Origin: Epilithonimonas zeae
Lineage (GTDB): Bacteria > Bacteroidota > Bacteroidia > Flavobacteriales > Weeksellaceae
Direction of reading: 5' to 3'
Assembly (NCBI RefSeq): GCF_023278365.1
Contig: NZ_CP075338.1
Coordinates: 930,001-994,000 of the forward strand
DNA: 64,000 nt
In this document: piece by piece, positions 2,689 through 30,074 of the stretch
Layout of the letters: the number at the start of each line of letters is the position of its first letter
How positions within the stretch are numbered: position 1 is the first letter of the stretch
Made by a program: the position numbers and the translations under genes
Notes under the pieces: model-generated
Told to the model about the DNA's origin: nothing
Database searches by the model: none
The model's input: the letters and a program-made list of their open reading frames with translations, nothing else

Positions 2689-3039
2689 TTATTTTTCAAA
2701 AAAAGCATTCAGGGTTTCAAGATTTTTTTTATCACTTCCCGCAAAAACTTCATTATCCGTGATAAAGACCGGACGTTTCAAAAAACTGTAATGGTCAAGA
2801 ATCAACTTCTTAAAATCCTTTTCTTTCAAAGAACTCACATCAATTCCTCTTTCCTTGATTTGCGTTGATTTCTTACTGAAAAGCGCTTCATAAGATTTCG
2901 TTTTCTCATACATCTCTTCCAGTTCCGCTTCGGTTACAGGTTGCGATTTGATTTCTCTCAGTTCCCAGTCAGAAAGGTTAAGAGGTGTCATTATTTTCTT
3001 GTTGGTTCCGCAGGTTTTGAGGTAGAATACTTTTTTCAT
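2689..3039 (-). CDS. ArsC/Spx-like thioredoxin-fold protein
   Basis: This 116-residue protein (MKKVFYLKTCGTNKK...) has the ArsC/Spx thioredoxin fold: a start strand, then a CGTN loop at residues 10-13, and a RPVFITDNEVFAG segment near residue 85 matching the cis-Pro/RP region of the family. The usual CX2C of Spx is not present; the single N-terminal Cys is as in arsenate-reductase-type members. An ATG at 3039 was chosen over a TTG five codons upstream. Substrate is unknown, and no ars genes are near. It is divergent from the thioesterase gene. Confidence 0.75.
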   Translation of the reverse strand: MKKVFYLKTCGTNKKIMTPLNLSDWELREIKSQPVTEAELEEMYEKTKSYEALFSKKSTQIKERGIDVSSLKEKDFKKLILDHYSFLKRPVFITDNEVFAGSDKKNLETLNAFFEK

Positions 3040-3081
3040 TTTTATTAAAGTCAAGCGATTTAAAATAGAATTCGGGAATTA

Positions 3082-3089
3082 CAAATTTA
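3082..3089 (-). promoter_or_regulatory. TAnnTTTG -7 box for the ArsC-like gene
   Basis: On the minus strand this reads TAAATTTG, matching the Bacteroidota -7 element. It lies 43 nt before the ATG of the ArsC-like gene. Confidence 0.5.
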
Positions 3090-3148
3090 GTACAAATGTC
3101 AAAGGAATAAAACATAAATAATGAAGATATAATCTGAAATTTCTTCCC

Positions 3149-3156
3149 TATTTTTG
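3149..3156 (+). promoter_or_regulatory. TAnnTTTG -7 box for the thioesterase gene
   Basis: TATTTTTG matches the Bacteroidota -7 consensus and lies 17 nt before the ATG at 3174, giving a short leader. Confidence 0.5.
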
Positions 3157-3173
3157 ATACAAATAAGAATAGA

Positions 3174-3641
3174 ATGGAAAACAAACCGGTCACGTTTCAG
3201 TTTATTTCTGAACCGACAGACGTTAATTTCGGAGGCAATGTTCACGGAGGAAGTGTGATGAAATGGATAGATCAAGTCGGTTACGCCTGCGCAAGCAATT
3301 GGTCAGGAACATATTGTGTAACGGTTTATGTTGGCGGAATCCGATTTTATCAACCTATTAAAATCGGAGAAATTGTCAAATTAGAATCGCACGTCATTTT
3401 CACAGGAAGCACAAGTATGCATATCGCTATTGATGTTTTTTCAAGAAATGTAAAAGAGAAAAAATTCGAGAAGAAAACGCATTGCATTATTGTATTTGTA
3501 GCGGTTGATGAAAACGGAAAAGCAGTACAAGTTCCAAAATGGGAACCAACCACAGAAAAGCAAATTCAGTTGGAACAATATGCAAAAAAACTGATGAACC
3601 TGAGAAAAGACATCGAAGATGAGATGAAACCATTTTTATGA
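3174..3641 (+). CDS. Acyl-CoA thioesterase (hotdog fold)
   Basis: This 155-residue cytosolic protein hydrolyses acyl-CoA thioesters by family. The diagnostic block NFGGNVHGGSVMKWIDQVG (about residues 19-37) is the hotdog helix with the catalytic Asp of the YciA/BFIT-type family. It is followed by a conserved V(T)VYVGGIRFYQPIKIGE strand pair near residues 50-65. Length fits single-domain members. The chain end is rich in Lys/Glu. It stands alone with its own promoter box; a role in fatty-acid or CoA turnover is inferred from the family. Confidence 0.85.
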   Translation: MENKPVTFQFISEPTDVNFGGNVHGGSVMKWIDQVGYACASNWSGTYCVTVYVGGIRFYQPIKIGEIVKLESHVIFTGSTSMHIAIDVFSRNVKEKKFEKKTHCIIVFVAVDENGKAVQVPKWEPTTEKQIQLEQYAKKLMNLRKDIEDEMKPFL

Positions 3642-3743
3642 ATTGATAATTTAAACGATTTATATTTAAGAATCAACAATTCATAATAATTATAAATTAA
3701 ATAAAATTAATGATTTGATTGATTTTATAAACTTAATAACACC

Positions 3744-3751
3744 TAATTTTG
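3744..3751 (+). promoter_or_regulatory. TAnnTTTG -7 box before the T9SS protein
   Basis: TAATTTTG lies 28 nt before the TTG start at 3779, which supports using that non-ATG start. Confidence 0.5.
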
Positions 3752-3778
3752 TTCTGAAAAATTAAAAAAGTATTCAAA

Positions 3779-5329
3779 TTGAACAAAAAAATTATCAGTT
3801 TATTAGCCTTATCATTAGTGGTTAATATCAATGCGCAGGTTTTCAATGCAGGTTTCGAAAATAACAATGGCACACCGCTGTCTCAATTCAAAACAATCAA
3901 TGCAGATGGATTAACAGTTCCGGAATGGGGACAAGTACAGGAATTCAATACAGAAGCCTGGATTCAGTTTTATGACGGTTATGACAACAAAATTGCTTTC
4001 AGTACATCTTATTATTCTCCGGAAGGCCAGGCGAATGATTGGTTGATTACACCAGCAATTACAATTCCTAACACAGGAACGCCAACACTTTATTGGAAAG
4101 GAAAATCCTACGACTTTGAATATACAGACTCCTACGCTGTAAAAGTTTCTGTGACCAATGACAGCCCGGAATCTTTCACAACGTTGACTCAGATTGATGC
4201 CGAGCAACCGTTTGACTACGCATCGCATACTTTAGACTTATCCGATTACAAAGGAAAAACCATCTATTTGGCTTTCGTAAATAACACAAACAGCGGAACA
4301 TATTTAGCTTTAGATGATTTGTATATCAGCCAATCTGCAGATTGCGTGATGCCTTCATTAGATGGATTTTCGGTTTCGAATCTTAAACCAAATTCAGTAA
4401 CAATCAACTGGTCAGCAACCAGCGGAATTACTAATTATGATACAGGATTGACAACTTTTGACACTTCTGTTTCTTCCAAAGGAATCACTTCTACAACAAC
4501 AAAGAGTTTTGATAATTTGCAAGCCGGAAAAAGATATCAGTTCTTTTTGAAAAATGCGGATTGCGGTTCGGGCTGGGCTGGTCCGAAATCCATTTGGACA
4601 CCCACAGAACTTCCCTATTCCTATGATTTCGAAAAAACAGTCGAGAATTATGGCGAATATGATTCTGATGGTTGGGCGTCTACGACTTGGCTGATGGGAG
4701 AAAATCAGTCTGTTGCTCAAAACGGAAGCGGTTACGCTTATAACAATACAAGTACTTCTGCTGCCGGGAAAAATGACTGGTTATTCTCCTATCCAATCTA
4801 TCTTAAAAACGGCGAAACGGTTACAGTAAAATATCACACAGCGATAGGAAGTGAAGAAGCAGAACCTGCTACTTTGAAAGTTGCCGTAGCAAGTGCACCG
4901 GACAAAAATAATATCAGTGCAAATCTAAGCACTCAAACTGTTTCTCAACAAACTTATACAGAACATACAGTTAGTTACACGGCAACAGCTGACCAGGTTT
5001 ACTATATTGGATTTGGAAATACAACTGCTCAGGTTACTACAACAACTGCTCTAAGACTTGATAATATCAGTTTCACAAAAAATAATTTGGCTGTGAATGA
5101 TGTTAATAAAACCAACATCAAAGTTTATCCAAATCCTGTTGTCGACCAGTTGAATATCAAGACAGACGAGACAATCAAATCGGTTCAAGTTTATTCCTTA
5201 GACGGAAAATTGCTTAAAACAATCAATGGAAATACAACCATAGTTGATTTTAAAAATTATCCAAAAGGTTCTTATTTGGTGAAGATTGAAACCAACAAAT
5301 CAACGACTTCTCAAAAAGTTATAAAATAA
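3779..5329 (+). CDS. T9SS-secreted adhesin-like protein (choice-of-anchor J, FnIII)
   Basis: This 516-residue secreted protein uses a TTG start. Residues 1-20 are a signal peptide (MNKKIISLLALSLVVNINAQ). Residues about 22-185 form a cleaved-adhesin/choice-of-anchor-J type beta sandwich (NDWLITPAITIP, LALDDLYIS). Residues 190-275 look like a fibronectin type III domain, and a second sandwich occupies about 280-435 (NDWLFSYPIYL, LRLDNISF). The last 75 residues are a T9SS type A sorting domain (KVYPNPVVDQLNI ... LKTINGN ... GSYLVKIET). It is therefore exported by Sec, then by T9SS to the surface or medium. No catalytic motif was seen, so adhesion or matrix binding is only suggested by the domains. 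Confidence 0.85.
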   Translation: MNKKIISLLALSLVVNINAQVFNAGFENNNGTPLSQFKTINADGLTVPEWGQVQEFNTEAWIQFYDGYDNKIAFSTSYYSPEGQANDWLITPAITIPNTGTPTLYWKGKSYDFEYTDSYAVKVSVTNDSPESFTTLTQIDAEQPFDYASHTLDLSDYKGKTIYLAFVNNTNSGTYLALDDLYISQSADCVMPSLDGFSVSNLKPNSVTINWSATSGITNYDTGLTTFDTSVSSKGITSTTTKSFDNLQAGKRYQFFLKNADCGSGWAGPKSIWTPTELPYSYDFEKTVENYGEYDSDGWASTTWLMGENQSVAQNGSGYAYNNTSTSAAGKNDWLFSYPIYLKNGETVTVKYHTAIGSEEAEPATLKVAVASAPDKNNISANLSTQTVSQQTYTEHTVSYTATADQVYYIGFGNTTAQVTTTTALRLDNISFTKNNLAVNDVNKTNIKVYPNPVVDQLNIKTDETIKSVQVYSLDGKLLKTINGNTTIVDFKNYPKGSYLVKIETNKSTTSQKVIK

Positions 5330-5343
5330 GTTAAAAAAAATAG

Positions 5344-5373
5344 TTGCAGAATTAAAAATCATTTCTAAATTTG
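5344..5373 (+). promoter_or_regulatory. trp operon promoter (TTG-N19-TAnnTTTG)
   Basis: TTG at 5344-5346, exactly 19 nt, then TAAATTTG at 5366-5373, a full match to the Bacteroidota -33/-7 arrangement. It sits just before the Trp-rich leader peptide. Confidence 0.75.
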
Positions 5374-5378
5374 TCCCA

Positions 5379-5456
5379 ATGAAATTAATGAACACAAAAA
5401 ACTGGTGGTGGCTTTCAAACTCTTTGTCGGGTCTGAAAGGATTATCGGTGTTCTAA
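5379..5456 (+). CDS. trpL: trp leader peptide (Trp-Trp-Trp)
   Basis: This 22- or 25-codon ORF can start at ATG 5379 or, in frame, at ATG 5388 (MNTKNWWWLSN...). It ends with TAA at 5454-5456. Three consecutive TGG codons lie at 5403-5411, which is otherwise very unlikely for so short an ORF. It lies between the promoter and the terminator in front of trpE. By the established logic of transcription attenuation, ribosome stalling at these codons when charged tRNA-Trp is scarce would let the operon be read. Start 5388 leaves a better leader length than 5379, which lies almost at the expected transcription start. Confidence 0.88.
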   Translation: MKLMNTKNWWWLSNSLSGLKGLSVF

Positions 5457-5521
5457 AATTCTGAACTAACTATAACTCAATCATAATAAGACTTCGACAT
5501 TTTTGTTGAAGTCTTTTTTTA
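5412..5521 (+). promoter_or_regulatory. Transcription attenuator with alternative hairpins
   Basis: Three mutually exclusive pairings can be read. (1) Protector hairpin: 5412-5422 with 5429-5439, ten pairs and one mismatch, starting directly after the Trp codons. (2) Antiterminator: 5425-5434 with 5489-5499, ten pairs around a bulged base. (3) Terminator: 5488-5499 with 5504-5515, twelve pairs including one G.U, a loop of four T, then a T tract to 5520. A ribosome stalled on the TGG codons would cover the 5' arm of (1), free 5426-5434 and favour (2) over (3). The pairings were derived by eye, without energies. Confidence 0.8.
5488..5521 (+). terminator. trp attenuator terminator
   Basis: The stem AAGACTTCGAC / GTTGAAGTCTT, extended by one A-T pair, is followed by an uninterrupted T tract. 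It is located 45 bp before the trpE start and after the leader peptide stop. Confidence 0.88.
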
Positions 5522-5565
5522 TTAATGACTTCGACAAGCCTTAATAAAAATGAAAATTATTTAAA

Positions 5566-6984
5566 ATGAACTTGGAAAACATCATCAATATAAAAACCTC
5601 TGTTAAATCCCGTCTAGCAGACCTTTACACGCCGATTGGGATTTATCTCCGTCTTCGCGACCAATTTCGTGATACGATTCTCTTGGAAAGCGCAGGAAAT
5701 CAGAATTCTGAAAATTCGTTTTCTTTCATTTGTGTCAACGCAATTGCCGGAATTGAAATTCGAAATTACGATGAAGCAGAACTGAAATTTCCGCTTGAAA
5801 ATCCTCAGAAAATTGATTTGAAAAATGAAAAATTATCTGATTTGATGCAGGAATTTTCCAATTGTTTCAAATGTGAAAAACCCAACCACGAGATTGGAAA
5901 ACAAGCGCAGGGATTTTTCGGCTACACCAGTTATGATGCGATTCCGTTTTTTGAGAATATCAAATTCAAAGAACAATCGGAGGAAAATAAAATTCCGTTG
6001 ATGCGTTATCGTCTTTATCAATATGTGATTGCAATCAATCATCACAACGACGAAATGTTCCTGATTGAAAATAAAATCAATGGAATGAAATCAGAACTAT
6101 CAACGCTTGAAAATATCATTAATCAAAAAAACGCACCGGTTTTTCCCTTCGAATTGACCTCAGAAGAAACTTCAAATCTAACTGACAACGAATATCTTGA
6201 ATCAGTTGAATTTGCCAAAAAACATTGTTTCCGTGGTGATGTTTTTCAGTTAGTTTTAAGCAGAAGATTTGAGCAGAATTTTCAAGGCGATGAGTTCAAT
6301 GTTTATCGTGCTTTGCGAAATATCAATCCTTCTCCTTATTTATTCTTCTTCGATTATGGCGATTATAAATTAATGGGCTCAAGTCCGGAAAGTCAGCTGA
6401 TTATCAAAAATAGAAAAGCTATAATCCATCCAATTGCAGGCACTTTCAAACGAACCGGAAATATCGAAAAAGATTTGGAATCAGCAGAAGAACTCAAAAA
6501 AGACCCCAAAGAAAATGCCGAGCATACGATGTTGGTAGATTTGGCAAGAAATGATTTGAGCATTCACGGTAAAAATACTACAGTTTCAAAACTGAAAGAA
6601 ATCCACTTTTTCTCACACGTGATTCATATGGTTTCCGAAGTTGTGGCTGATGTCAAAGAAGACCAAAATCCTTGTGAAATGATTGCAACCACTTTCCCAC
6701 AAGGCACTTTGAGCGGCGCTCCAAAATACAGAGCAATGCAATTGATTGATGAGCACGAGAAAACGTCCAGAAGTTATTACGCAGGATGTATCGGTTTTGT
6801 TGGCTTCGACGGAAGTTGTAATCAGGCGATTATGATAAGAACTTTCCTAAGCAAAAATAACACTCTATTTTATCAAGCCGGAGCCGGAATTGTTGCAAAA
6901 TCTATTGCAGAAAACGAACTTCAGGAAGTTAATAACAAATTAGGCGCTCTGAAAAAAGCCATTTTAAAAGCAGAAAAATTATGA
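5566..6984 (+). CDS. trpE: Anthranilate synthase component I
   Basis: This 472-residue subunit converts chorismate and ammonia to anthranilate, using ammonia from TrpG. The N-terminal LLES motif (residues 39-42) is the usual tryptophan feedback site. The chorismate-binding domain fills about residues 200-465, with GDVFQLVLSRR, HPIAGTFKRTG, EHTMLVDLARNDL, FPQGTLSGAPK and YYAGCIGFVGFDG blocks. It is the first gene after the attenuator and overlaps trpG by 4 bp (ATGA), which suggests translational coupling of the two subunits. PabB is the main alternative, but the operon context settles it. Confidence 0.97.
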   Translation: MNLENIINIKTSVKSRLADLYTPIGIYLRLRDQFRDTILLESAGNQNSENSFSFICVNAIAGIEIRNYDEAELKFPLENPQKIDLKNEKLSDLMQEFSNCFKCEKPNHEIGKQAQGFFGYTSYDAIPFFENIKFKEQSEENKIPLMRYRLYQYVIAINHHNDEMFLIENKINGMKSELSTLENIINQKNAPVFPFELTSEETSNLTDNEYLESVEFAKKHCFRGDVFQLVLSRRFEQNFQGDEFNVYRALRNINPSPYLFFFDYGDYKLMGSSPESQLIIKNRKAIIHPIAGTFKRTGNIEKDLESAEELKKDPKENAEHTMLVDLARNDLSIHGKNTTVSKLKEIHFFSHVIHMVSEVVADVKEDQNPCEMIATTFPQGTLSGAPKYRAMQLIDEHEKTSRSYYAGCIGFVGFDGSCNQAIMIRTFLSKNNTLFYQAGAGIVAKSIAENELQEVNNKLGALKKAILKAEKL

Positions 6985-7574
6985 AAATATTAGTCTTTGA
7001 TAATTACGATAGTTTCACTTACAATTTGGTCCAAATCATCGAGCAAATTATTGGTTCGGAAGTGGATGTTTATAGAAACGACCAAATTGCATTGGAGGAT
7101 ATCGAAAAATATGACAAAATCATTCTTTCTCCAGGTCCCGGAATTCCCGAAGAAGCTGGAATCTTGTTGGATTTGATTAAGAAATATGCACCAACCAAAT
7201 CTATTTTCGGAGTTTGTCTTGGACAACAAGCAATTGCGGAAGCTTTTGGCGGAAGTCTCATTAATTTATCTGAAATCTATCACGGTGTTGCAACGGAAGC
7301 TGTTCAGATTAACGCTCATAAAATTTTTAACGGTTTACCGGAAACTTTGGAAGTTGGGCGGTATCATTCCTGGGCGGTAAATCCTGACGATTTCCCAACA
7401 GAATTAGAAATCACAAGCGTTGACAAAAACGGAATGATTATGAGTTTGAAACACAAAACTTATGATATTCACGCTGTACAATATCACCCGGAAAGTATTC
7501 TGACGCCTGATGGAAAACAGATTTTAGAAAACTTTTTGAAGTTGGATGCTAGAAGTCAAAAGTCAGAAGAATAA
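6981..7574 (+). CDS. trpG: Anthranilate synthase component II (glutamine amidotransferase)
   Basis: This 197-residue class I glutamine amidotransferase supplies ammonia to TrpE. The catalytic triad is visible: Cys79 in FGVCLGQQAIAEAFGG, and His169 with Glu171 in VQYHPESILTPDG. PGPG lies at 51-54. The start overlaps the trpE stop. The last residues (DARSQKSEE) fall in a repeat-like word (agaagtcaaaagtcagaag), so the natural C-terminus has probably been altered or extended by an intergenic repeat. It may also serve p-aminobenzoate synthesis, as in many bacteria with one TrpG/PabA. Confidence 0.95.
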   Translation: MKILVFDNYDSFTYNLVQIIEQIIGSEVDVYRNDQIALEDIEKYDKIILSPGPGIPEEAGILLDLIKKYAPTKSIFGVCLGQQAIAEAFGGSLINLSEIYHGVATEAVQINAHKIFNGLPETLEVGRYHSWAVNPDDFPTELEITSVDKNGMIMSLKHKTYDIHAVQYHPESILTPDGKQILENFLKLDARSQKSEE

Positions 7575-7599
7575 AAATAACGCACAAATACTTCCGACT
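7561..7599. repeat. Low-complexity hairpin word at the trpG end
   Basis: AGTCAGAAG at 7561-7569 pairs with CTTCCGACT at 7591-7599 (one wobble) within a run of agtc/gact-type words extending about 7549-7618. It straddles the trpG stop and the trpG-trpD gap and resembles short self-complementary spacers elsewhere in the window. Confidence 0.5.
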
Positions 7600-7626
7600 T
7601 CAGACATCTGGCTTCGGACTAATATT

Positions 7627-8616
7627 ATGAAACAAATCCTACAATACCTTTTTAATCATCAGACTTTGACGAAAGCCGAAGCCAAAGCCATTTTGATTGA
7701 AATTTCACAAAATAAATTCAATGAAAGTGAGGTCATTTCGTTCATCACCGTTTTCCTAATGAGGACAATTACTTTGGAAGAACTCGAAGGTTTCCGTGAA
7801 GCACTATTGCAACTGGCAAAACCTGTCGATTTGGGAACCAAAGATTTGGTCGATATCGTTGGAACTGGTGGAGATGGAAAAAACACGTTTAACATCTCAA
7901 CTTTGGCGAGTTTCATCGTTGCAGGAACCGGACAAAAAGTCGCTAAGCAAGGTAATTACGGAGCTTCTTCTATTTCCGGCTCGTCTAATGTTTTTGAAGA
8001 ATTGGGTTACAAATTCAAGGATAATTCTGAAGATTTGAAAGCCGATTTGGAAAAGGGAAACATCTGTTTTCTTCACGCACCGCTATTTCATCCCGCTTTG
8101 AAATCTGTTGCACCCTTTAGAAAACAGCTTGGATTGAAGACTTTTTTCAATCTTTTGGGGCCGTTGGTTAATCCTTCGCGTCCTGATTTCACGATGATTG
8201 GCGTGGCAAATCTGGAAATTGCGAGAGTTTATCAATATCTGTTGCAAAAGCAAAAAAGCGAGTTTATGTTGGTTCACGCTTTGGATGGTTATGACGAAAT
8301 TTCCTTAACTGGTGACACCAAAATCTTTAGCAAAACTGGAGAAAAAATCTATTCTGCAGAAGATTTGAAATTCAAAAATGTTTCTCCTGAAAGTATTTTC
8401 GGAGGCGAAAGCAAAGAAGAAGCTGCAAAATTATTCATCAAGATTTTGGAAGGTAATGGAACTGAAGAACAAAACTCTGTCGTTCTTGCCAATGCTTCAA
8501 TTGCTTTGGTAAACACTGGTAAATATGGGAATTATGATGATTGCTTGGCTTTAACAAAAGAAAGTCTGGAAAGCGGAAAAGCACTGAAATCGCTTCGCTC
8601 AATTATTAATGGTTAA
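7627..8616 (+). CDS. trpD: Anthranilate phosphoribosyltransferase
   Basis: This 329-residue enzyme transfers phosphoribose from PRPP to anthranilate. Family blocks are GTGGDGKNTFNIST (PRPP loop), KQGNYGASSISGSSNVFEELG, HPALKSVAPFRKQLGLKTFF, NLLGPLVNP and VHALDGYDE. The frame is open upstream to a TTG at 7546, but that would overlap trpG with repeat-derived sequence. The ATG at 7627 begins the usual MKQILQYLFN helix and was chosen. It is followed by an insertion-like module rather than directly by trpC. Confidence 0.95.
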   Translation: MKQILQYLFNHQTLTKAEAKAILIEISQNKFNESEVISFITVFLMRTITLEELEGFREALLQLAKPVDLGTKDLVDIVGTGGDGKNTFNISTLASFIVAGTGQKVAKQGNYGASSISGSSNVFEELGYKFKDNSEDLKADLEKGNICFLHAPLFHPALKSVAPFRKQLGLKTFFNLLGPLVNPSRPDFTMIGVANLEIARVYQYLLQKQKSEFMLVHALDGYDEISLTGDTKIFSKTGEKIYSAEDLKFKNVSPESIFGGESKEEAAKLFIKILEGNGTEEQNSVVLANASIALVNTGKYGNYDDCLALTKESLESGKALKSLRSIING

Positions 8617-8659
8617 TTGTTAATGATTAGCTAAAACATATTATCAAATAAATTGAAAG

Positions 8660-8702
8660 TTTGTCATTCAGAACGTAGCATTGCGGAGTGAAGAATCTTT
8701 TT
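8660..8702 (+). repeat. Left inverted copy of the TTTGTCATTC...GAAGAATCTTTT element
   Basis: It starts TTTGTCATTC at 8660 and ends GAAGAATCTTTTT at about 8702. The same boundary words occur in reverse complement at 9069-9112, so the two copies bracket the GIY-YIG gene as inverted repeats. Confidence 0.75.
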
Positions 8703-8712
8703 AAATTAAATT

Positions 8713-9021
8713 ATGAAAACTTTAGGAACACATAATTATTATGTTTATATCTTGACGAATAAGAATAAAACAGTTCTTTATATAGGAGTAACTAATGATT
8801 TGAAAGGTAGATTATTCTGGCATATGAATCCTGAATCTCATACTAACCACTTTACATTTAAATATAGATGCTTCTTTTTAATTTATTATGAATTTTTCCA
8901 AGATATAGACCAAGCAATCGCTAGGGAAAAACAATTAAAAGGTTATTCTAGAATCAAAAAAGAAAATCTTATTAAAAATATCAATCCTAATTGGGATTTT
9001 TGGAATGATAAAATTGAATAA
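8713..9021 (+). CDS. GIY-YIG nuclease family protein
   Basis: This 102-residue single-domain protein (UPF0213/YhbQ-like) has the GIY-YIG core: YVYILTNK (residues 10-17, the GIY strand) and LYIGVTNDLKGRL (22-34, YIG plus the following Arg). The helix with the catalytic-type Glu follows (AIAREKQLKGYSRIKKENLI, residues 69-88). The family cuts or binds DNA with one metal ion; the biological role of these stand-alone versions is not established. It lies inside the trp operon between trpD and trpC, in the operon direction. It is flanked on both sides by inverted copies of a roughly 44-bp repeat, which makes it look like a mobile passenger. Confidence 0.88.
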   Translation: MKTLGTHNYYVYILTNKNKTVLYIGVTNDLKGRLFWHMNPESHTNHFTFKYRCFFLIYYEFFQDIDQAIAREKQLKGYSRIKKENLIKNINPNWDFWNDKIE

Positions 9022-9068
9022 ATTTCTAATAAAAATATTATTTCTTTTTCAAACTAAGTATAAAGTCT

Positions 9069-9112
9069 AAAAAGATTCTTCGCTACACTTCGTTTCGCTC
9101 CGAATGACAAAA
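9069..9112 (-). repeat. Right inverted copy of the TTTGTCATTC...GAAGAATCTTTT element
   Basis: It reads AAAAAGATTCTTC ... GAATGACAAAA on the plus strand, the reverse orientation of 8660-8702. The middle, CGCTACACTTCGTTTCGCTC, differs from the left copy. It ends just before trpC and supplies a spurious upstream in-frame ATG at 9104. Confidence 0.75.
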
Positions 9113-9130
9113 TCCAAAAAAGAAAGGAAA

Positions 9131-9901
9131 ATGAACATCCTAAATAAAATTATTGACCGAAAAAGACAGGAAGTTGCAGATGCAAAATCCAAAATCTCTG
9201 TTTTCCAACTGAAAGACTCTGAGTTTTTTGGAAGACCAACTTTTTCGTTAAAAGAAACCATCAAGACAAAATCCGGCATCATCACCGAATTCAAAAGAAA
9301 ATCGCCGAGCAAAGGCATTATCAATGACAAAGTATCACCTTTGGAAGTTGTTTCCCGATATGCAAATTTCGGAGCAAGTGCGGTTTCTATTTTGACAGAC
9401 AAAGATTTTTTCGGTGGAAGTTTTGACGATATTTTGAATGTCAGAAATCATATTAATATTCCGATTCTGAGAAAAGATTTTATGATTGATGAATACCAGT
9501 TTTACGAAGCAAAATCAATTGGGGCGGACGTCATTTTGTTGATTGCTGCTTGCCTTTCCCCAAATCAGGTTTTGGAATTTACAGAATTGGCGCATTCTCT
9601 CAATCTTGAAGTTTTGTTGGAAATCCATTCCGAAGAAGAATTAAAACACATCAATAAAAATGTTGATTTTGTTGGAATTAACAATCGAAATTTGAAAGAT
9701 TTCAAAGTGGATTTGCAACACTCTGTAAATCTAAAAAATCAGCTTCCAAAAGATGTTTTTTCGGTTGCAGAAAGTGGAATTTATAATGAAGAAGACTTTA
9801 AATTTCTGAAAGAAAAAGGTTTTGATGGATTTCTGATGGGCGAATATTTTATGAAAAATGAAAATCCTGGAAAGAAATTCGGAGAATTTGTTTCAAAATG
9901 A
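9131..9901 (+). CDS. trpC: Indole-3-glycerol-phosphate synthase
   Basis: This 256-residue TIM barrel closes CdRP to indole-3-glycerol phosphate. Diagnostic blocks are ITEFKRKSPSKG (residues 51-62), SILTDKDFFGGSF (87-99), PILRKDFMIDEYQ (111-123), LLEIHSEEEL, GINNRNLKDF and VAESGIYNEED. The ATG at 9131 was chosen because it follows AGAAAGGA and begins the normal MNILNKIIDRK helix. The ATG at 9104 lies in the flanking repeat and adds nine Lys-rich residues. Confidence 0.95.
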   Translation: MNILNKIIDRKRQEVADAKSKISVFQLKDSEFFGRPTFSLKETIKTKSGIITEFKRKSPSKGIINDKVSPLEVVSRYANFGASAVSILTDKDFFGGSFDDILNVRNHINIPILRKDFMIDEYQFYEAKSIGADVILLIAACLSPNQVLEFTELAHSLNLEVLLEIHSEEELKHINKNVDFVGINNRNLKDFKVDLQHSVNLKNQLPKDVFSVAESGIYNEEDFKFLKEKGFDGFLMGEYFMKNENPGKKFGEFVSK

Positions 9902-9925
9902 GAATTTAATTATTCAATAATTGCT

Positions 9926-10426
9926 ATGGAAAATAATAGAAGTGAGAATATTAAAAAGTTGGTGAAGCTAATAACAGAAGGTTATGAAGTAGAAGATTTA
10001 AACGATATCGTATCTAATTTGGATCATGCAATTCATCATCCATATGACTACGCCGAAAAAAATGACCTATTATGGCTTTATGAGGTGGACGAGATCAACC
10101 CACTTTCATTGGACTATATAATTCCGTTAGAAATTAATGAAATAGCAATAATTGGTGATAAAATAGATGAAATACACGACCAAATCGGTGATATTATCGA
10201 AGAATTACCTGAGTTTCCTATTTACAAAAAAATGACTGCCAAAGAATACTTTTTCTGGTTAGATGATGTTTTGTCCGAAAGCAACGAAGAAATTCTTGAA
10301 ATTGGGAAAAGTTTTGGTGATGACCTGACACTATTCTTGGTGTATAAAAAAAATACGGATGAGATTATCAAGATCTGTCAACAGTTCGATTTGAAATGTT
10401 CAAATCCGAAAAATTCTCTTTATTAA
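9926..10426 (+). CDS. Acidic hypothetical protein inside the trp operon
   Basis: This 166-residue protein is not confidently recognised. It is strongly acidic (many Asp/Glu, for example GDKIDEIHDQIGDIIEELPE near 85-105). It is probably alpha-rich at the N-terminus, and ends in a GDDLTLFLVYKKNTDEIIKICQQFDL strand-helix unit. That ending faintly recalls DUF6630-type or immunity-like proteins, but this is a weak impression. There is no signal or membrane segment. It sits 24 bp after trpC and 10 bp before trpF, so it must be co-transcribed with the operon. Confidence 0.6.
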   Translation: MENNRSENIKKLVKLITEGYEVEDLNDIVSNLDHAIHHPYDYAEKNDLLWLYEVDEINPLSLDYIIPLEINEIAIIGDKIDEIHDQIGDIIEELPEFPIYKKMTAKEYFFWLDDVLSESNEEILEIGKSFGDDLTLFLVYKKNTDEIIKICQQFDLKCSNPKNSLY

Positions 10427-10436
10427 TAATGAATTT

Positions 10437-11096
10437 ATGACTCAATTAAAACTAAAAGTTTGCGGATTAACAAAACTTGATCAGATTCAGGAACTGATTA
10501 ATTTGAATGTTGATTTCTTGGGATTTATATTTTATGAAAAATCGCCAAGATATGTTCTGAATCATTTAAGTTTGGAGCAAATCTCAGAAATCAATCATCC
10601 AGGAAAGGTTGGCGTTTTTGTAAATGAAGACTTGGAAAAAATTATTAAATTTTCGGAACAAACAAACTTGAATTTCATACAACTTCACGGCCATGAAACG
10701 GAAGATTTCATTTCAGAATTAAAACTAAAATTGAATCCAAAAATTGGAATTATCAAAGTCATTAGAATAGGAAATCAAACATCAGAAGAATTACAAAAAA
10801 CCATCAAACAACAACCAACAACAATCAACTATCTTCTATTCGACACAGATTCCCAAGCTTTTGGCGGAACAGGAAAATCCTTCGATTGGAACATTTTAAA
10901 TGACATCGAAATTCCAATTCCTTATTTTTTAAGTGGCGGAATCTCATTAGAAAACTTCAATCAACTGAAAACTATCAACCATCAACCAATTGCTCTCGAT
11001 ATCAATTCAAAATTTGAAATCGAAGCTGGAAATAAAAATTTAGAAAAAGTAAAAGAATTTTTATTATTAACAAAAAATGAAACATCATCAATATAA
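10437..11096 (+). CDS. trpF: Phosphoribosylanthranilate isomerase
   Basis: This 219-residue TIM-barrel isomerase converts PRA to CdRP. Catalytic Cys9 is in LKVCGLT and the catalytic Asp is at 136 in LLFDTDSQAFGGTGKSFDW. FLGFIFYEKSPRYV (28-41), VGVFVNE, IQLHGHE and YFLSGGISLEN are family blocks. It overlaps the following OsmC gene by 20 bp. Confidence 0.95.
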   Translation: MTQLKLKVCGLTKLDQIQELINLNVDFLGFIFYEKSPRYVLNHLSLEQISEINHPGKVGVFVNEDLEKIIKFSEQTNLNFIQLHGHETEDFISELKLKLNPKIGIIKVIRIGNQTSEELQKTIKQQPTTINYLLFDTDSQAFGGTGKSFDWNILNDIEIPIPYFLSGGISLENFNQLKTINHQPIALDINSKFEIEAGNKNLEKVKEFLLLTKNETSSI

Positions 11097-11544
11097 AAGT
11101 AAAATAGTCTGGACAGGAAACACCGGCGAATCCACGAAAAACTATAGTTCTTATCAAAGGAATTATACAATTTCTGTCGATGGAAAAGCTGACATTTTAG
11201 GCTCATCTGACCCAGCATTTCTTGGAAATCCAGGACTTCATAATCCTGAAGATTTGCTGTTAGCTTCGGTTTCTTCGTGCCATTTGTTGTGGTATCTTCA
11301 TTTTTGTTCTGTGAACAAAATTCTGGTTTTGGAATATGAAGATTTTGCAGAAGGAACAATGGTTGAGAATGAAAACGGAAGTGGAAAATTCAGTGAAATT
11401 ATTTTGAAACCAAGGATTGTTGTTGCTGAAAAAGAAATGATTGAAAAAGCGGTTGAACTTCATCAGAAGGCGAATGAATATTGTTTCATTGCAAATTCTT
11501 TGAACTTTGAAGTGAAGCATCAACCAGAGATAACAACAAAATAA
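11077..11544 (+). CDS. OsmC/Ohr family protein
   Basis: This 155-residue protein shows the OsmC fold, with NPEDLLLASVSSCHLLWYLHFC at about residues 56-77, carrying the first redox Cys at 68. The second Cys is in NEYCFIANSL near residue 137. The family reduces organic hydroperoxides through two cysteines, in the cytosol. It starts inside trpF (20-bp overlap) and is followed 8 bp later by the acetyltransferase gene, so it travels with the operon. No direct role in Trp synthesis is known. Confidence 0.85.
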   Translation: MKHHQYKSKIVWTGNTGESTKNYSSYQRNYTISVDGKADILGSSDPAFLGNPGLHNPEDLLLASVSSCHLLWYLHFCSVNKILVLEYEDFAEGTMVENENGSGKFSEIILKPRIVVAEKEMIEKAVELHQKANEYCFIANSLNFEVKHQPEITTK

Positions 11545-11552
11545 ATTGAGAA

Positions 11553-12086
11553 ATGCAGTATTCTATTAAAAAATCAGAAGATTTATCTGACCAAGAAATT
11601 GATTTAATTTTGAAATCTTGGAAAATAGAAGATTGGTTGGAGCTGGATTCTTCGAGTTTCAAAATGAAATTTGAAAAATCTGAATTTCATCTTTTAGAAA
11701 TTGATGAAAGAATAGTTTCGCTGGCAAGAATCAATTTTGATTTTAAATTTGAAATACAAAAGAATCTATATTGTTTTGCTGAACTTGTAGGATTGGTTTC
11801 TTTAGAAAAAGCGAAAGGATATGGTAGCTTATTGCTTAATAAAATGGTAACAAATCTAAAAGAGAGAGAAATTGAAACCATAGGATTTTGTAAATTGGAA
11901 TTAAGACCATTTTATGAAAGGAATGACATCCAAATCCTTTATGGAAAGGGAATTTTCATAACAGAATTTGATAATAATAAATGGATAGATTCCGATGACG
12001 ATGATATTTTAATCATCAATACTTCCGAAGAAAACATCAATATATTACGAAGTCTGAATGAACAGAATAAAGCAATTTTAATATAA
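11553..12086 (+). CDS. GNAT-like acetyltransferase
   Basis: This 177-residue protein has a GNAT core: a beta strand pair (EFHLLEIDERIVSLARINF), then CFAELVGLVSLEKAKGYGSLLLNKMVTNLKE. This holds the acetyl-CoA pyrophosphate-loop pattern (KAKGYGS) at about residues 90-96. The C-terminal half is acidic (DSDDDD) and less typical. The substrate is unknown. It lies between osmC-like and trpB in the operon orientation. Confidence 0.65.
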   Translation: MQYSIKKSEDLSDQEIDLILKSWKIEDWLELDSSSFKMKFEKSEFHLLEIDERIVSLARINFDFKFEIQKNLYCFAELVGLVSLEKAKGYGSLLLNKMVTNLKEREIETIGFCKLELRPFYERNDIQILYGKGIFITEFDNNKWIDSDDDDILIINTSEENINILRSLNEQNKAILI

Positions 12087-12110
12087 CGACTTAGAAAAAT
12101 TTAAGAATAA

Positions 12111-13289
12111 ATGAACTTTCAAAACCCAGATAAAAACGGTTATTACGGCGATTTTGGCGGAGCTTTCATCCCCGAAATGCTTTACCCAAACGTTGCCGAA
12201 TTACAGGAAAAATATATCCAAATCATCGAATCGGAAGAGTTCCAAGATGAATTTCAGGATTTGCTGAAGAACTATGTTGGCCGCGCTACTCCACTCTATT
12301 TCGCAAAAAATCTGAGCGAAAAACACCAGACTCAAATCTATCTAAAAAGAGAAGATCTGAATCACACAGGAGCGCACAAAATCAACAATGCGTTGGGACA
12401 AGCTTTATTAGCCAAAAAACTCGGAAAACATAGAATCATTGCAGAAACCGGAGCCGGACAACACGGTGTTGCAACCGCTACAGCTTGTGCTTTACTCGGT
12501 TTGGAATGTATTGTTTATATGGGCGAAGTCGATATCCAAAGACAAGCGCCGAACGTTGCCAGAATGAAAATGTTGGGCGCAACAGTAATTCCTGCAACTT
12601 CGGGCTCCAAAACTTTGAAAGATGCTGTGAATGAAGCTTTGAGAGATTGGATTAATAATCCTTCCACTACACATTACATTATCGGAAGTGTAGTTGGCCC
12701 ACATCCGTTTCCTGATTTGGTAGCGAGATTTCAAAGTATCATTTCAAAAGAAATCAAAGGGCAACTGAATGAAAAAATCGGTAGAGAAAATCCGGATTAT
12801 GTGATTGCCTGCGTTGGAGGCGGGAGTAATGCAGCAGGAACTTTCTATCATTTCGTGAACGAGGAAAATGTGAAAATCATTGCAGCGGAAGCTGGTGGTT
12901 TAGGCGTTGATTCAGGGAAATCAGCTGCGACTACTTTTCTTGGAACATTAGGAATTTTGCACGGAAGTCAAAGCCTTGTGATGCAGACTGAGGACGGACA
13001 GGTTATTGAACCACACTCGATTTCTGCAGGTTTGGATTATCCGGGAATTGGGCCGATGCACGCTAACCTTTTTAATCAAAAAAGAGCAGAATTTTTCAGC
13101 ATTAATGATGATGAAGCTTTGAAATCTGCTTTTGAGCTGACAAAAATCGAAGGTATTATTCCCGCTTTGGAGAGTGCGCACGCTTTGGCTGTTTTGGACA
13201 AAAAGAAATTTGAAAAAGAAGATGTGGTCGTGATTTGTTTGAGTGGGCGTGGCGATAAGGATATGGAAACGTATTTGAAACATCTTTAA
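12111..13289 (+). CDS. trpB: Tryptophan synthase beta chain
   Basis: This 392-residue PLP enzyme joins indole and serine. The PLP lysine is Lys90 in [16 protein letters not shown] and the catalytic Glu is Glu112 in [11 protein letters not shown]. The phosphate loop is [12 protein letters not shown], and the C-terminal CLSGRGDKD is typical. Length and all blocks match canonical TrpB1, which pairs with TrpA. The 86-bp gap to trpA is filled by a hairpin repeat. Confidence 0.97.
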
Positions 13290-13293
13290 ATCT

Positions 13294-13370
13294 GTAAAAT
13301 GTAAAACGTATTAATGTATTTATGAGTCTCAATCGTTAATACATTTTACGTGAATACTTTAATACATTAA
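13294..13370. repeat. Self-complementary spacer between trpB and trpA
   Basis: GTAAAATGTA (13294-13303) pairs perfectly with TACATTTTAC (13340-13349). TTAATGTATT (13311-13320) pairs with AATACATTAA (13361-13370). The spacer is built from taatacattttac-type words. It has no T tract, so it is not an obvious terminator, and trpA presumably remains in the operon. Confidence 0.6.
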
Positions 13371-13375
13371 TCAAA

Positions 13376-14110
13376 ATGAAAAAACTAAACATATACTTTA
13401 CAGCAGGCGTTCCAAAGTTGGAAGACACCGGAAAAATCGCTAAACTGATTCAGGAATCGGGAGCAGATATGATGGAAATCGGGATTCCTTATTCTGATCC
13501 TGTTGCAGACGGACCTGTGATTCAGGAGGCGCATTCTCTGGCTTTGAAAAACGGAATGTCTATCAAAAAACTATTCGAGCAATTAGCCGAAATCAAAGAT
13601 TCGGTTACAATTCCTAAAATATTAATGGGTTATCTTAATCCTGTTCTTCAGTTTGGGTTTGACAACTTTTGTCAGAAATGTGCAGAAGTTGGTGTTTCAG
13701 GATTAATCATCCCGGATTTGCCACCCATTGAATTTGAAAATAAATATGGCGAAATCCTCAAAAAACACAATTTGAATTTCACTTTCCTGGTAACGCCCGA
13801 AACTTCGGAAAAACGCATCAAATATCTGGATTCTTTGAGTTCCGGATTCCTATATGCTGTTTCCAGCTCATCGACAACCGGAAACGACAATGCTGTTCTC
13901 AAGAACGAAAATTACCTTGACAGACTGGCTTCATTAAACTTGACCAATCCAGTTTTCATCGGTTTTGGAATCAAAAATAAATCTGATTTTGAGAATGTAA
14001 CAGAAAAAGCACAAGGCGGCATTATCGGAACAGCTTTTGTGAAAATTCTTCTGGAAAATCAAGATTGGGAATCTAAAGCAGAAAGCTTTATCCAAAGTGT
14101 AAAGAATTAA
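13376..14110 (+). CDS. trpA: Tryptophan synthase alpha chain
   Basis: This 244-residue TIM barrel cleaves indole-3-glycerol phosphate and passes indole to TrpB. The catalytic Glu34 and Asp45 are in MEIGIPYSDPVADGPVIQ. Further blocks are KILMGYLNPV, GLIIPDLPPIE, VSSSSTTG and GFGIKNKSD. It is the last gene of the operon and is followed directly by a strong terminator. Confidence 0.96.
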   Translation: MKKLNIYFTAGVPKLEDTGKIAKLIQESGADMMEIGIPYSDPVADGPVIQEAHSLALKNGMSIKKLFEQLAEIKDSVTIPKILMGYLNPVLQFGFDNFCQKCAEVGVSGLIIPDLPPIEFENKYGEILKKHNLNFTFLVTPETSEKRIKYLDSLSSGFLYAVSSSSTTGNDNAVLKNENYLDRLASLNLTNPVFIGFGIKNKSDFENVTEKAQGGIIGTAFVKILLENQDWESKAESFIQSVKN

Positions 14111-14113
14111 TAA

Positions 14114-14149
14114 AAAAAGCAGTCTTACTAAGAAATAAGACTGCTTTTT
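14114..14149. terminator. Terminator at the end of the trp operon
   Basis: AAAAAGCAGTCTTA (14114-14127) pairs with TAAGACTGCTTTTT (14136-14149), with an 8-nt loop. T-rich sequence follows on the plus strand and an A run precedes it, so it can serve both trpA and the convergent SDR gene. Confidence 0.9.
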
Positions 14150-14153
14150 ATTT

Positions 14154-15047
14154 TTAGAAGAAATATTGATTCAGTTCTTCAACAAAACTTTTTTCAGAAG
14201 GATTCCATCCTAATTTTTCCCGAGTCTGTAAATTTGTTGCCGGACAATTTTCCTGCACAAAGTACGTCATCCAGGTAAAATATTCCGGTGCTTCTTCTAT
14301 AGACAAAGATTTTACAGGAATATTTAGTTTTTCACCTATCAGTTCTGCAAATTCTTTCATTGATAATGGTTTATCATTACTAACGGCATTATATCTCGCT
14401 CCAGTTTCTCCTTTTTCAAGTGCCAAACGAAATAATTTTGCAGCATCAACACGATGAACAGCAGGCCAGACATTATTTCCCTCTCCGATGTAAGCCGCTA
14501 ATCCCTTAGCCTTCGCGAGTTCTGCCAACATCACTCCGAAACCTCCTTTGAAACCCGATTCGGAATTACCGTAAACACTGGGAGAAAGACGAACAATAGA
14601 TGCCCTAACACCGGATTGTGATAAATCTGCGAAAGCTTTTTCAGAGAATCTGATTGATTCTGCCGGTGCCTTACTGTCCTCTGTGATTTTCCCGTCGATA
14701 AGTGGAAGTCCTAAAGTTCCACCTGTCACCACAATGGATTTATCGGTTCCTTTCAATACTTCGCCCATTGCTTCAATGGCTTTCTGGTCTTTGAGCGCAT
14801 TAGTCTGGTAATCAGAAAAATCGTGGATAAAAGCTGTATGAATAACGCCATCTGCCTCTCTTGCTCCTTTTTGTAAAATATCAAGACTTTCCAAATCTCC
14901 CATCAAAACTTCTGCTCCAGCTTCTCTGATGGATTTTGCAGATTCTTCCGAACGCGCCAATCCAACTACCTGATGGCCATTTACTAATAATTCTTTTACT
15001 ACTGCTGAGCCTACAAATCCTGAAGCTCCCGTTACAAATACTTTCAT
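14154..15047 (-). CDS. NAD(P)-dependent SDR/epimerase family protein
   Basis: This 297-residue Rossmann protein begins MKVFVTGASGFVGSAVVKELL, the atypical or extended SDR nucleotide loop (TGASGFVG, residues 6-13). A conserved GDLES turn follows near residue 51, and RLSPSVYGNSESGF near 155 holds the YG of the family active region. No classical YxxxK is obvious. The substrate is unknown, and it is probably a cytosolic reductase. It is divergent from a Crp/Fnr regulator, which may control it (inference from adjacency). Confidence 0.8.
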   Translation of the reverse strand: MKVFVTGASGFVGSAVVKELLVNGHQVVGLARSEESAKSIREAGAEVLMGDLESLDILQKGAREADGVIHTAFIHDFSDYQTNALKDQKAIEAMGEVLKGTDKSIVVTGGTLGLPLIDGKITEDSKAPAESIRFSEKAFADLSQSGVRASIVRLSPSVYGNSESGFKGGFGVMLAELAKAKGLAAYIGEGNNVWPAVHRVDAAKLFRLALEKGETGARYNAVSNDKPLSMKEFAELIGEKLNIPVKSLSIEEAPEYFTWMTYFVQENCPATNLQTREKLGWNPSEKSFVEELNQYFF

Positions 15048-15080
15048 ATTTTTAAATTTGTTTTGTTAAAATTTCTAATA

Positions 15081-15088
15081 CAAATTTA
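15081..15088 (-). promoter_or_regulatory. TAnnTTTG -7 box for the SDR gene
   Basis: TAAATTTG on the minus strand, 33 nt before the SDR ATG, in the shared divergent region 15048-15183. Confidence 0.5.
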
Positions 15089-15183
15089 GCTTGGAATCAA
15101 TAGCAAAAACGAGGTCATTTGACACAATTTTTATATTAATCCAATAAAAAGAATTAATTTTAATCATAATTTCAATTTGGAAA

Positions 15184-15771
15184 ATGTCCGAGATTTTAAA
15201 AAATTACTTTCAGAAAGTACTTCCCGATTTCACAGAAGAAAAGTTCAATTTCATTTTATATAAAAGTCAATTGATAAAGCTCCAGCGTAAAGAAACTGTG
15301 TGCAAACAAGGCGAAGTCTGTAATCTGAAAATCTTTGTTGCCAAAGGGCTTTTGCGTAATTATTCTGTCTCCGAAGATGGCAATGAACATATTCTCCAGT
15401 TCGTGAACGAAATGTCCTGGACGACAGATCCGGAAAGCTTTTATAACAATTCGCCTTCAAAACTGACGATTGAAGCAATGGAATCTTCGGAAATCTTTGC
15501 TTTTAATCTTGAAGATTTTGCTGAACTGAGAGAACAAATCCCTGAACTTAATATTTTTGTAGAAAATATCCTGACAAGAAAATCAATGGAAATCCACAAA
15601 CGGCTTTTGATGAACATTAGTAGTAGTCCGGAAGAGAAATACCTTGATTTTATCAATACTTACCCTGATATTTTCAATAGAGTTCCTTTGCATATGGTGG
15701 CTTCTTATCTGGGACTTTCCAGAGAAACTTTGTCTCGTGTCCGAAGGAATATTTTAAAAACTGTTTTGTAA
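15184..15771 (+). CDS. Crp/Fnr family transcriptional regulator
   Basis: This 195-residue protein has an N-terminal cyclic-nucleotide-binding-like beta roll (residues about 20-120: RKETVCKQGEVCNLKIFVAKGLLRNY) and a C-terminal helix-turn-helix (VPLHMVASYLGLSRETLSRVRR, about 166-187). It belongs to the CRP/FNR superfamily. It lacks an Fnr-type Cys cluster, so the ligand is unknown. It is divergent from the SDR gene, with 136 bp between them. Confidence 0.85.
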   Translation: MSEILKNYFQKVLPDFTEEKFNFILYKSQLIKLQRKETVCKQGEVCNLKIFVAKGLLRNYSVSEDGNEHILQFVNEMSWTTDPESFYNNSPSKLTIEAMESSEIFAFNLEDFAELREQIPELNIFVENILTRKSMEIHKRLLMNISSSPEEKYLDFINTYPDIFNRVPLHMVASYLGLSRETLSRVRRNILKTVL

Positions 15772-15798
15772 TATTAAAGATATACATAAAAAATTATC

Positions 15799-15860
15799 AC
15801 AGATCTGACTATTTGAGCAAATTCTATCATCTGCTTAATTAGTTAAATCTGCGAGAGATA
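15799..15860. repeat. Dispersed AAATCTGCGAGA-type repeat
   Basis: ATTTGAGCAAATTCTA followed about 25 nt later by AAATCTGCGAGAGA. The same two words, in the same order and spacing class, recur at 24846-24912. Confidence 0.5.
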
Positions 15861-15870
15861 AAAACCCAAC

Positions 15871-15903
15871 AAAAAAGAGTTTCAAAACCTGAAACTCTTT
15901 TTT
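15871..15903. terminator. Bidirectional terminator
   Basis: AAAAAAGAGTTTCA / TGAAACTCTTTTTT with a 5-nt loop, lying between the convergent Crp/Fnr and holin-like genes. Confidence 0.85.
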
Positions 15904-15907
15904 TATT

Positions 15908-16252
15908 TTAATCGTTGCTTTCGAAAATTGTTGAGAAAGCTGATGTAACCAATGACAAAAGAATACTGAAGAGCAGCGCCCAAAGGAAACCATCCACCTG
16001 CATACTATCCATAAAATAATCGGTTAAAAGTATCATCAATGCATTGATAACAAAAGAAAACAACCCTAATGTTATAATCGTAATAGGCAATGACAGGATC
16101 GATAGAATCGGTTTAACGAATACATTCAGGATTCCCAAAACAATAGCGAAAATAATAGTAGAACCAAAGGTGTCGAAATGTATACCTGTAAGGATTTTGC
16201 TGAGTAAAAATGCTGAAATGGCGGTTATCAGCAAACGGATAATAAAGTTCAT
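15908..16252 (-). CDS. Phage-holin-family (PF04020-like) membrane protein
   Basis: This 114-residue protein is made of four hydrophobic segments (about 1-22, 29-50, 54-76, 89-110). The pattern is GILNVFVKPILSILSLPITIITLGLFSFVINALMILL. This is the hallmark of the small four-helix 'phage holin family' membrane proteins, which are common chromosomal genes in Bacteroidota. The function is not established, and the holin name is historical. No phage genes are near. Confidence 0.8.
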   Translation of the reverse strand: MNFIIRLLITAISAFLLSKILTGIHFDTFGSTIIFAIVLGILNVFVKPILSILSLPITIITLGLFSFVINALMILLTDYFMDSMQVDGFLWALLFSILLSLVTSAFSTIFESND

Positions 16253-29875: not shown

Positions 29876-30074
29876 ACATTTCGGCGCTTGGCACCTTGAT
29901 AATAGTTTTGTTTATTCTCTACCAACATTTTGCTACTTCGTAGCTTCTTAAACAGCGAATTTCTCGCAGCCCGACTTGAGCGGAAATCCTTTTTTGCCAA
30001 CCTTAAAGTTCTATTTAATTTGAAATGGTCTGCAAAAAAGATTGGGAGCGGAAGGCGGAAATAGCTGCCCAAAT
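29876..30074 (-). repeat. Dispersed repeat, copy D
   Basis: On the minus strand this reads GGGCAGCTATTTCCGCCTTC, CGCTCCCAATCTTTTTT, then a long arm to AAAAAGGATTTCCGCTC and AAGTCGGGCTGCG, bounded by a GGTGCCAAGCGCCG hairpin. It shares the GGGCAGC...CCGC and GTCGGGCTGCG words with copy B. It fills the gap between hmuV and the methyltransferase gene. Confidence 0.7.

Follow-up and report, generated by a model that had tools for sequence, protein, structure and literature searches.

The window (the whole 64,000-nucleotide stretch of Epilithonimonas zeae DNA that was analysed) carries a tryptophan operon on its plus strand with a leader region in front of trpE. The TrpE of this genome shares 99% identity with its counterpart in Epilithonimonas arachidiradicis. 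The features are collected in Table 1. Behind trpE, the rest of the operon (6981..14110) holds trpG, trpD, trpC and trpF, interspersed with a GIY-YIG gene, an OsmC-like gene and two open reading frames without a Pfam match, and it closes with two reading frames which, from their translations, we take to be trpB and trpA. It is probable that the genes from trpE to trpA are read as one transcript. Elsewhere in the window there is a match to the Flavo-1 RNA (RF01705) at 29961-30066, which with 43.5 bits lies barely above the cut-off of 42.

Table 1. Features of the trp leader region and the trp operon (window coordinates)
Feature	Position	Strand	Basis or detail
Gene 5' of the leader region	ends 5329		
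Promoter	5344-5373	+	TTG 5344-5346, N19, -7 box TAAATTTG 5366-5373
Predicted transcription start	5378-5379	+	4-5 nt past the -7 box; predicted
trpL leader ORF	5379-5456	+	MKLMNTKNWWWLSNSLSGLKGLSVF; 25 codons; stop 5454-5456
Outer extension of protector	5401-5409 with 5441-5449	+	
Three Trp codons	5403-5411	+	TGG TGG TGG, TGGTGGTGG
Protector hairpin 1:2	5412-5439	+	5412-5422 with 5429-5439, MFE fold
Antiterminator segment, region 2	5425-5434	+	pairs with 5489-5499
Intrinsic terminator	5488-5520	+	arms 5488-5499 / 5504-5515, T tract 5516-5520
trpE	5566-6984	+	PF00425 + PF04715
trpG	6981-7574	+	ORF + Pfam match
trpD	ends 8616	+	ORF + Pfam match
GIY-YIG gene inside the trp operon	8713-9021	+	Pfam match
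trpC	ends 9901	+	ORF + Pfam match
ORF inside the trp operon	9926-10426	+	no Pfam match
trpF	10437-11096	+	ORF + Pfam match
OsmC-like gene inside the trp operon	11077-11544	+	Pfam match
Second ORF inside the trp operon	11553-12086	+	no Pfam match
ORF taken to be trpB	12111-13289	+	ORF translation
ORF taken to be trpA	13376-14110	+	ORF translation

The leader region had earlier been read from the letters of the sequence alone, and that sequence-only reading proposed a promoter of the form TTG-N19-box, a reading frame of 22 or 25 codons with three adjacent TGG codons, a protector hairpin, an antiterminator pairing and a terminator with T tract before trpE. All of these were found where it had placed them. 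The leader frame begins MKLMNTKNWWW, a short ORF with repeated Trp codons, and use of a second in-frame ATG at 5388 would give 22 codons instead of 25. A short ORF of the type ATG...WWW...stop occurs once in the window and in 0/60 shuffled windows. The protector is borne out by the MFE fold, and its inner pairs are formed in 94.4% of cells in an alignment of 18 sequences from the genus. The antiterminator (2:3) duplex, with one bulged base at 5493, has an energy of -12.4 kcal/mol. The terminator, whose arms are followed by five T, has -15.1 kcal/mol, and its pairs are formed in 98.1% of cells in the within-genus comparison. The fold of 5376-5530 as a whole is unusually stable (z = -5.4; 0/200 shuffles equally good).

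Taken one by one, several elements are not beyond chance. The 2:3 duplex by itself is just mildly unusual (54/2000 shuffles equally good), a terminator scan of 3000-16000 stayed at chance level (9 found, 8.4 expected), and the motif TANNTTTGNNNNNATG occurs once in the window against 1.8 expected, so that for TANNTTTGNNNNNATG only conservation counts as evidence. The case for the putative attenuator is likewise carried by conservation, not by single-element statistics. It should be noted here that a second copy of GACTTCGACA lies at 5527-5536, directly 3' of the terminator. It was considered as an extra pairing partner and dropped, because the region behind the terminator is variable between relatives and has interspersed repeats. 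One type of interspersed repeat, GTCATCCTGAGC...GTCGAAGGATTTT, was seen between terminator and trpE in L004, L007, L008, L010, L011, L013 and L015.

TrpE was sought in 148 genomes of the Weeksellaceae and matched in 144. There were 118 strong matches (E 6.6e-118 or better), and upstream DNA was taken for 90 of them (L001, L040-L128); these are not a random draw, since the 28 left out were mostly from genera already well covered. Leaders without Trp codons at homologous trpE genes had been named beforehand as evidence that would speak against attenuation. It was found that a leader ORF with adjacent Trp codons is kept 5' of trpE in 86/90 loci. No such leader was scored in L115, L126, L127 and L057, and the miss in L057 comes from a contig read from the wrong start, as its named copy L019 carries the leader. 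A Saprospiraceae contig (L035) also has a Trp leader, MFDNTKYWWLHTYSLTG. A predicted terminator stands behind the leader in 94 distinct leader-to-terminator stretches, one of them from Saprospiraceae; the terminator search was bounded at its start, since the 1:2 hairpin was otherwise picked in a few loci.

In the window the RNA behaves as a switch in silico. The check that had been suggested, folding with and without a constraint on the 5' part, was run with this part free or removed, and its removal raised the 2:3 pairing strongly. In the free leader the pairing of 5425-5434 with the 5' arm of the terminator has a probability of at most 0.02, and the protector outcompetes the antiterminator. 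With the part that a stalled ribosome would cover removed and the 3' arm not yet made, the probability becomes 0.81 at 5425, 0.98-1.0 at 5426-5433 and 0.87 at 5434. In silico, the antiterminator and the terminator of the window exclude each other, and the leader peptide has adjacent Trp codons. When the 3' arm is present, the minimum-energy fold of the complete stalled leader is the terminator. Since the 2:3 duplex is weaker than the terminator and the full stalled leader folds to the terminator, the mechanism needs co-transcriptional timing. The protector effect is not general across the family: with the 5' part removed, the terminator arm gains more than 0.3 in pairing in just 45/94 loci and 8/21 groups, and in genus g20 the free leader already shows this arm paired at 0.81.

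The 2:3 pairing was also examined by a swap test, in which the own terminator arm of a group was compared with foreign arms as partner of region 2. The own arm wins in 19/21 genus-level groups, with a mean of -2.65 kcal/mol and a one-sided Wilcoxon p of 2.4e-6, a p value which is approximate because groups share foreign arms and some group labels were assigned by us. Two control segments from these leaders show nothing (11/19 groups, p 0.26; 3/5, p 0.59). The groups g8 and g9 fail the test, and the 2:3 duplexes of g8, g9, g21, g28 and of a few further loci score no better, or hardly better, than shuffles. Among the 86 loci with a 2:3 duplex at or below -8.5 kcal/mol, pairing of region 2 begins 11-13 nt past the last Trp codon in 70. 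The edge of a ribosome held at that codon would be expected about there. An alignment of relatives had been suggested as a further check: most groups retain the 2:3 pairing, and compensatory changes within the genus are nearly absent (0 pairs for 2:3, 1 for 3:4 and 1 for 1:2). The within-genus covariation score for 2:3 is reached by 500/500 shuffles, the 1:2 counts do not beat shuffles, and 3:4 does so barely, in cells paired (12/500 shuffles reach it). Within-genus covariation was rejected as support because there is too little variation. As the helix hardly varies within the genus, the swap test is the strongest evidence for 2:3.

How completely such an attenuator can be read in a Bacteroidota operon had been called unusual by the sequence-only reading. 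An attenuator of this sort is unsurprising for the phylum, since the Bacteroid-trp motif (RF01692) is listed for Bacteroidetes (PMC2864571, Weinberg et al. 2010). Bacteroid-trp was described 5' of the F. psychrophilum trp operon (PMC6414381), and hints that leader peptides attenuate amino-acid operons have been reported in F. psychrophilum (PMC9723704). With these reports in print, a categorically new system was rejected. RF04312, the 'trpB' motif, was tried as a better home and was also rejected, giving 0/60 family genomes above cut-off and 2 weaker matches. RF01692 itself scores 21.6 bits (E 3.9) against the window, below its cut-off of 49 bits, and under stricter filters the own genome gave nothing for it at E 0.001. 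In genome searches with these stricter filters, by which weak matches are lost, RF01692 is above cut-off in 26/148 family genomes, none of them of the own genus, and in 27/296 phylum genomes. Its matches lie directly 5' of trpE in many Weeksellaceae of other genera. That 26/148 genomes pass, set against the leaders counted at the sampled loci, suggests that RF01692 misses many members.

From the score of 21.6 bits against a cut-off of 49, the attenuator of the window most likely belongs by descent to the Bacteroid-trp kind, as a divergent member. Both lie 5' of Bacteroidota trp genes and have a leader ORF with WWW, a long hairpin over the Trp codons and a terminator arm, which in the model is at the 3' end. 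They are unlike in the terminator arm (AAGACTTCGACA in the window, AAGGCTTGTC in Bacteroid-trp), in the pairing of 2:3, which is direct in the window whereas Flavobacterium members score weakly for it, and in the position of the -7 box, 5 nt from the ATG in the window and 16-20 nt in Flavobacterium. The start geometry does not set the window apart from RF01692, because L130-L133, L140 and L142, all above cut-off, share the 5-nt spacing. In the Flavobacterium-type Bacteroid-trp loci L134-L148 the arm reads AAGGCTTGTC, and in many of them the antiterminator, about 19 nt past the Trp codons, is weak and perhaps in two parts.

E. coli trpL has two Trp codons and the order leader ORF, Trp codons, 1:2, 2:3, 3:4. 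The same order exists in the window, which is unlike the enteric attenuator in having three Trp codons, no Shine-Dalgarno site, a leader that is predicted to be leaderless and a leader ORF that ends past region 2. The prediction of a leaderless leader comes from the promoter. The box TAAATTTG fits TAnnTTTG, the motif that occupies -12 to -5 in the F. psychrophilum sigma-A promoter (PMC9723704), and in the 110 nt 5' of the leader ATG it is the sole box with TA and at least 5/6 matches. It ends 5 nt short of the ATG. Many of the starts predicted for F. johnsoniae are 4 or 5 nt past the -7 element, which the authors use as a mark of probable promoters, and 87% of such transcripts have leaders longer than 10 nt (PMC6847099). 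If the F. johnsoniae spacing from box to start is applied to a box 5 nt from the ATG, the trpL ORF should be leaderless. The sequence-only reading had remarked on the short distance between promoter and leader start; the closeness stands, and the leaderless meaning was not drawn there. Leaderless transcripts make up 5.5% of the mRNAs examined in F. psychrophilum (PMC9723704), and 5' UTRs under 10 nt about 3.7% in B. thetaiotaomicron (PMC7366714). Trp leaders of this type have been reported in Sinorhizobium meliloti, whose trpL is leaderless (PMC7298713), and in Streptomyces lividans, in which the trp leader MFAHSTRNWWWTAHPAAH and 17% of transcripts are leaderless (PMC8079986); a leaderless ilvBNC attenuator leader has been discussed for C. 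glutamicum (PMC11857589). The S. meliloti and S. lividans leaders are like the present one in that the transcript opens with the leader ORF of a trp attenuator, which is a prediction here, and unlike it in belonging to other phyla. Searches confined to the available portions of open-licence PMC papers brought up none that describes a leaderless trp leader for Bacteroidota.

The start geometry is widespread in relatives. The -7 box lies 4-5 nt from the ATG in 64 of 86 Weeksellaceae leaders, 6-12 nt in 6 and more than 12 nt in 16, which leaves 22/86 without the 4-5 nt spacing; this spacing is that of the majority of leaders in 13/19 Weeksellaceae genera. An order-level pattern search of 296 genomes gave 119 with any match, chance matches included, and 49 leader-like rows were chosen by eye among the matches listed, with a pattern limited to boxes 3-24 nt away. 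Among these rows, the distance in Flavobacteriaceae is 5 nt or less in 8/18 genera, 6-9 nt in 4 and 16-20 nt in 6; the last range is that of the Flavobacterium trp leader (group g34, taken to be Flavobacterium). A histidine attenuator leader, MSIQLMHHHHHSHVQAGR with its relatives, was seen before hisG (L186 is the own genome). In the 12 Epilithonimonas genomes with this leader (L179-L190) the -7 box is 17-20 nt before the ATG, and one of the 12 carries a further ATG at a distance of 12 nt. The trp leaders of 8/12 of these genomes have the box at 5 nt. A general leaderless rule for the attenuator leaders of the genus was rejected on the His spacing, and the comparison of 17-20 nt with 5 nt means that the leaderless geometry is a feature of the trp leader which the attenuators of the genus do not all share. 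Of the four remaining hisG loci, which come from other families, three carry a His leader that lacks this box and one has no His leader, and no leader was found at 10 Epilithonimonas ilvD loci in a test for runs of four I/L/V. From these distances we consider it rather likely that in most sampled Weeksellaceae genera and in some of the Flavobacteriaceae translation of the trp leader begins with the AUG at the 5' end of the transcript itself, and that in the same genus this does not hold for the his leader.

Epilithonimonas offers natural variants, in which leaderless leaders exist beside leaders shifted about 48 nt downstream. The Trp leader is 52-54 nt from the box in 6/20 Epilithonimonas loci with a leader, because about 48 extra nt lie between the start-site ATGAAAC and the leader. 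The extra stretch was seen in L005, L007, L012, L041, L043, L045, L049, L058 and L060, where L005/L043, L007/L045 and L012/L049 are one genome each, entered twice. It carries an inverted repeat of the type GACAG...CTGTC, with one base off in L058. In L058 and L060 the start site reads ATTAAAC or ATCAAAAC in place of ATGAAAC. The mini-ORF at the start site overlaps the start of the Trp leader (ATGA) in L005, L041 and L043, is fused in frame with it in L007 and L045, and ends before it in L012 and L049.

Other explanations of the locus have to be weighed. The attenuator could operate with ribosomes that start at the second ATG, 5388, behind a 5' UTR of 9-10 nt, and would then not be leaderless in practice. 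This ATG is in frame in the window, and a further ATG before the Trp codons, a possible start, is present in 35/84 rows with leaderless geometry; in the other 49/84 the first ATG stands alone, and it is the distance of this first ATG from the box that is kept, as the majority spacing, in most genera. A start at 5388 is unlikely. Still less probable, though suggested by analogy with Sinorhizobium peTrpL and its RNA, is that the leader peptide, or else the short RNA left by attenuation, may also act in trans. Terminated transcripts that begin with AUG would amount to small leaderless mRNAs, as has been proposed for S. meliloti (PMC7298713), and the residues past WWW are conserved in most of the 18 leader sequences of the genus, a conservation for which the RNA pairings can account.

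It could also be asked whether the hairpin 5488-5515 is a mere terminator of the upstream gene, with the WWW ORF incidental. Intergenic intrinsic terminators are common, and the terminator scan around the operon did not rise above chance. Against this, promoter and leader intervene between the upstream gene and the hairpin, the leader is accompanied by a terminator in 94 distinct stretches, and shuffled windows gave no WWW ORF, which makes this reading very improbable. Sensing of tryptophan by a protein or a tRNA-binding RNA instead of the ribosome has, in our judgement, the smallest chance of all. TRAP, TrpR and T-box elements control trp genes elsewhere. The TRAP and TrpR families have no match in the own genome, with controls matching in 1 and 2 of 14 genomes, and a T-box is neither among the Rfam matches of the window nor among those of 5300-5570 at E up to 10.

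A ribosome-mediated trp attenuator, as the sequence-only reading had it, remains the best reading in view of the in-silico switch, the Trp codons kept at nearly all sampled loci and the 2:3 pairing kept in most groups, and we have considerable confidence in such an attenuator with a leader peptide whose translation would begin at the very 5' end of the RNA. From the elements, their conservation and the switch in silico we infer the start site, translation, stalling and termination as follows. RNA polymerase would start at 5378/5379, so that the AUG would be nucleotide 1 or 2 of the transcript, and ribosome loading could be possible without a Shine-Dalgarno site or a 5' UTR. With ample Trp-tRNA the ribosome would pass UGG UGG UGG, the protector would occupy 5412-5439, the terminator 5488-5520 would form and transcription would end before trpE. 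When Trp-tRNA is scarce, the ribosome would wait at the Trp codons and cover the 5' arm of the protector. The segment from 5425, just past the expected edge of the ribosome, would then pair with the 5' arm of the terminator, and with the antiterminator formed the polymerase would proceed into the trp genes.

The kind of attenuator is already known, and what was not found in print for Bacteroidota is the predicted leaderless start geometry. If it is true, an AUG at +1 would let the ribosome load once the RNA leaves the polymerase, and the sensor ribosome could be in step with the polymerase. Bacteroidota is, to our knowledge, a phylum without Shine-Dalgarno sites, and a Trp-sensing attenuator in such a phylum would provide a testable claim on how the sensor ribosome is loaded and on whether ribosome and polymerase move together.
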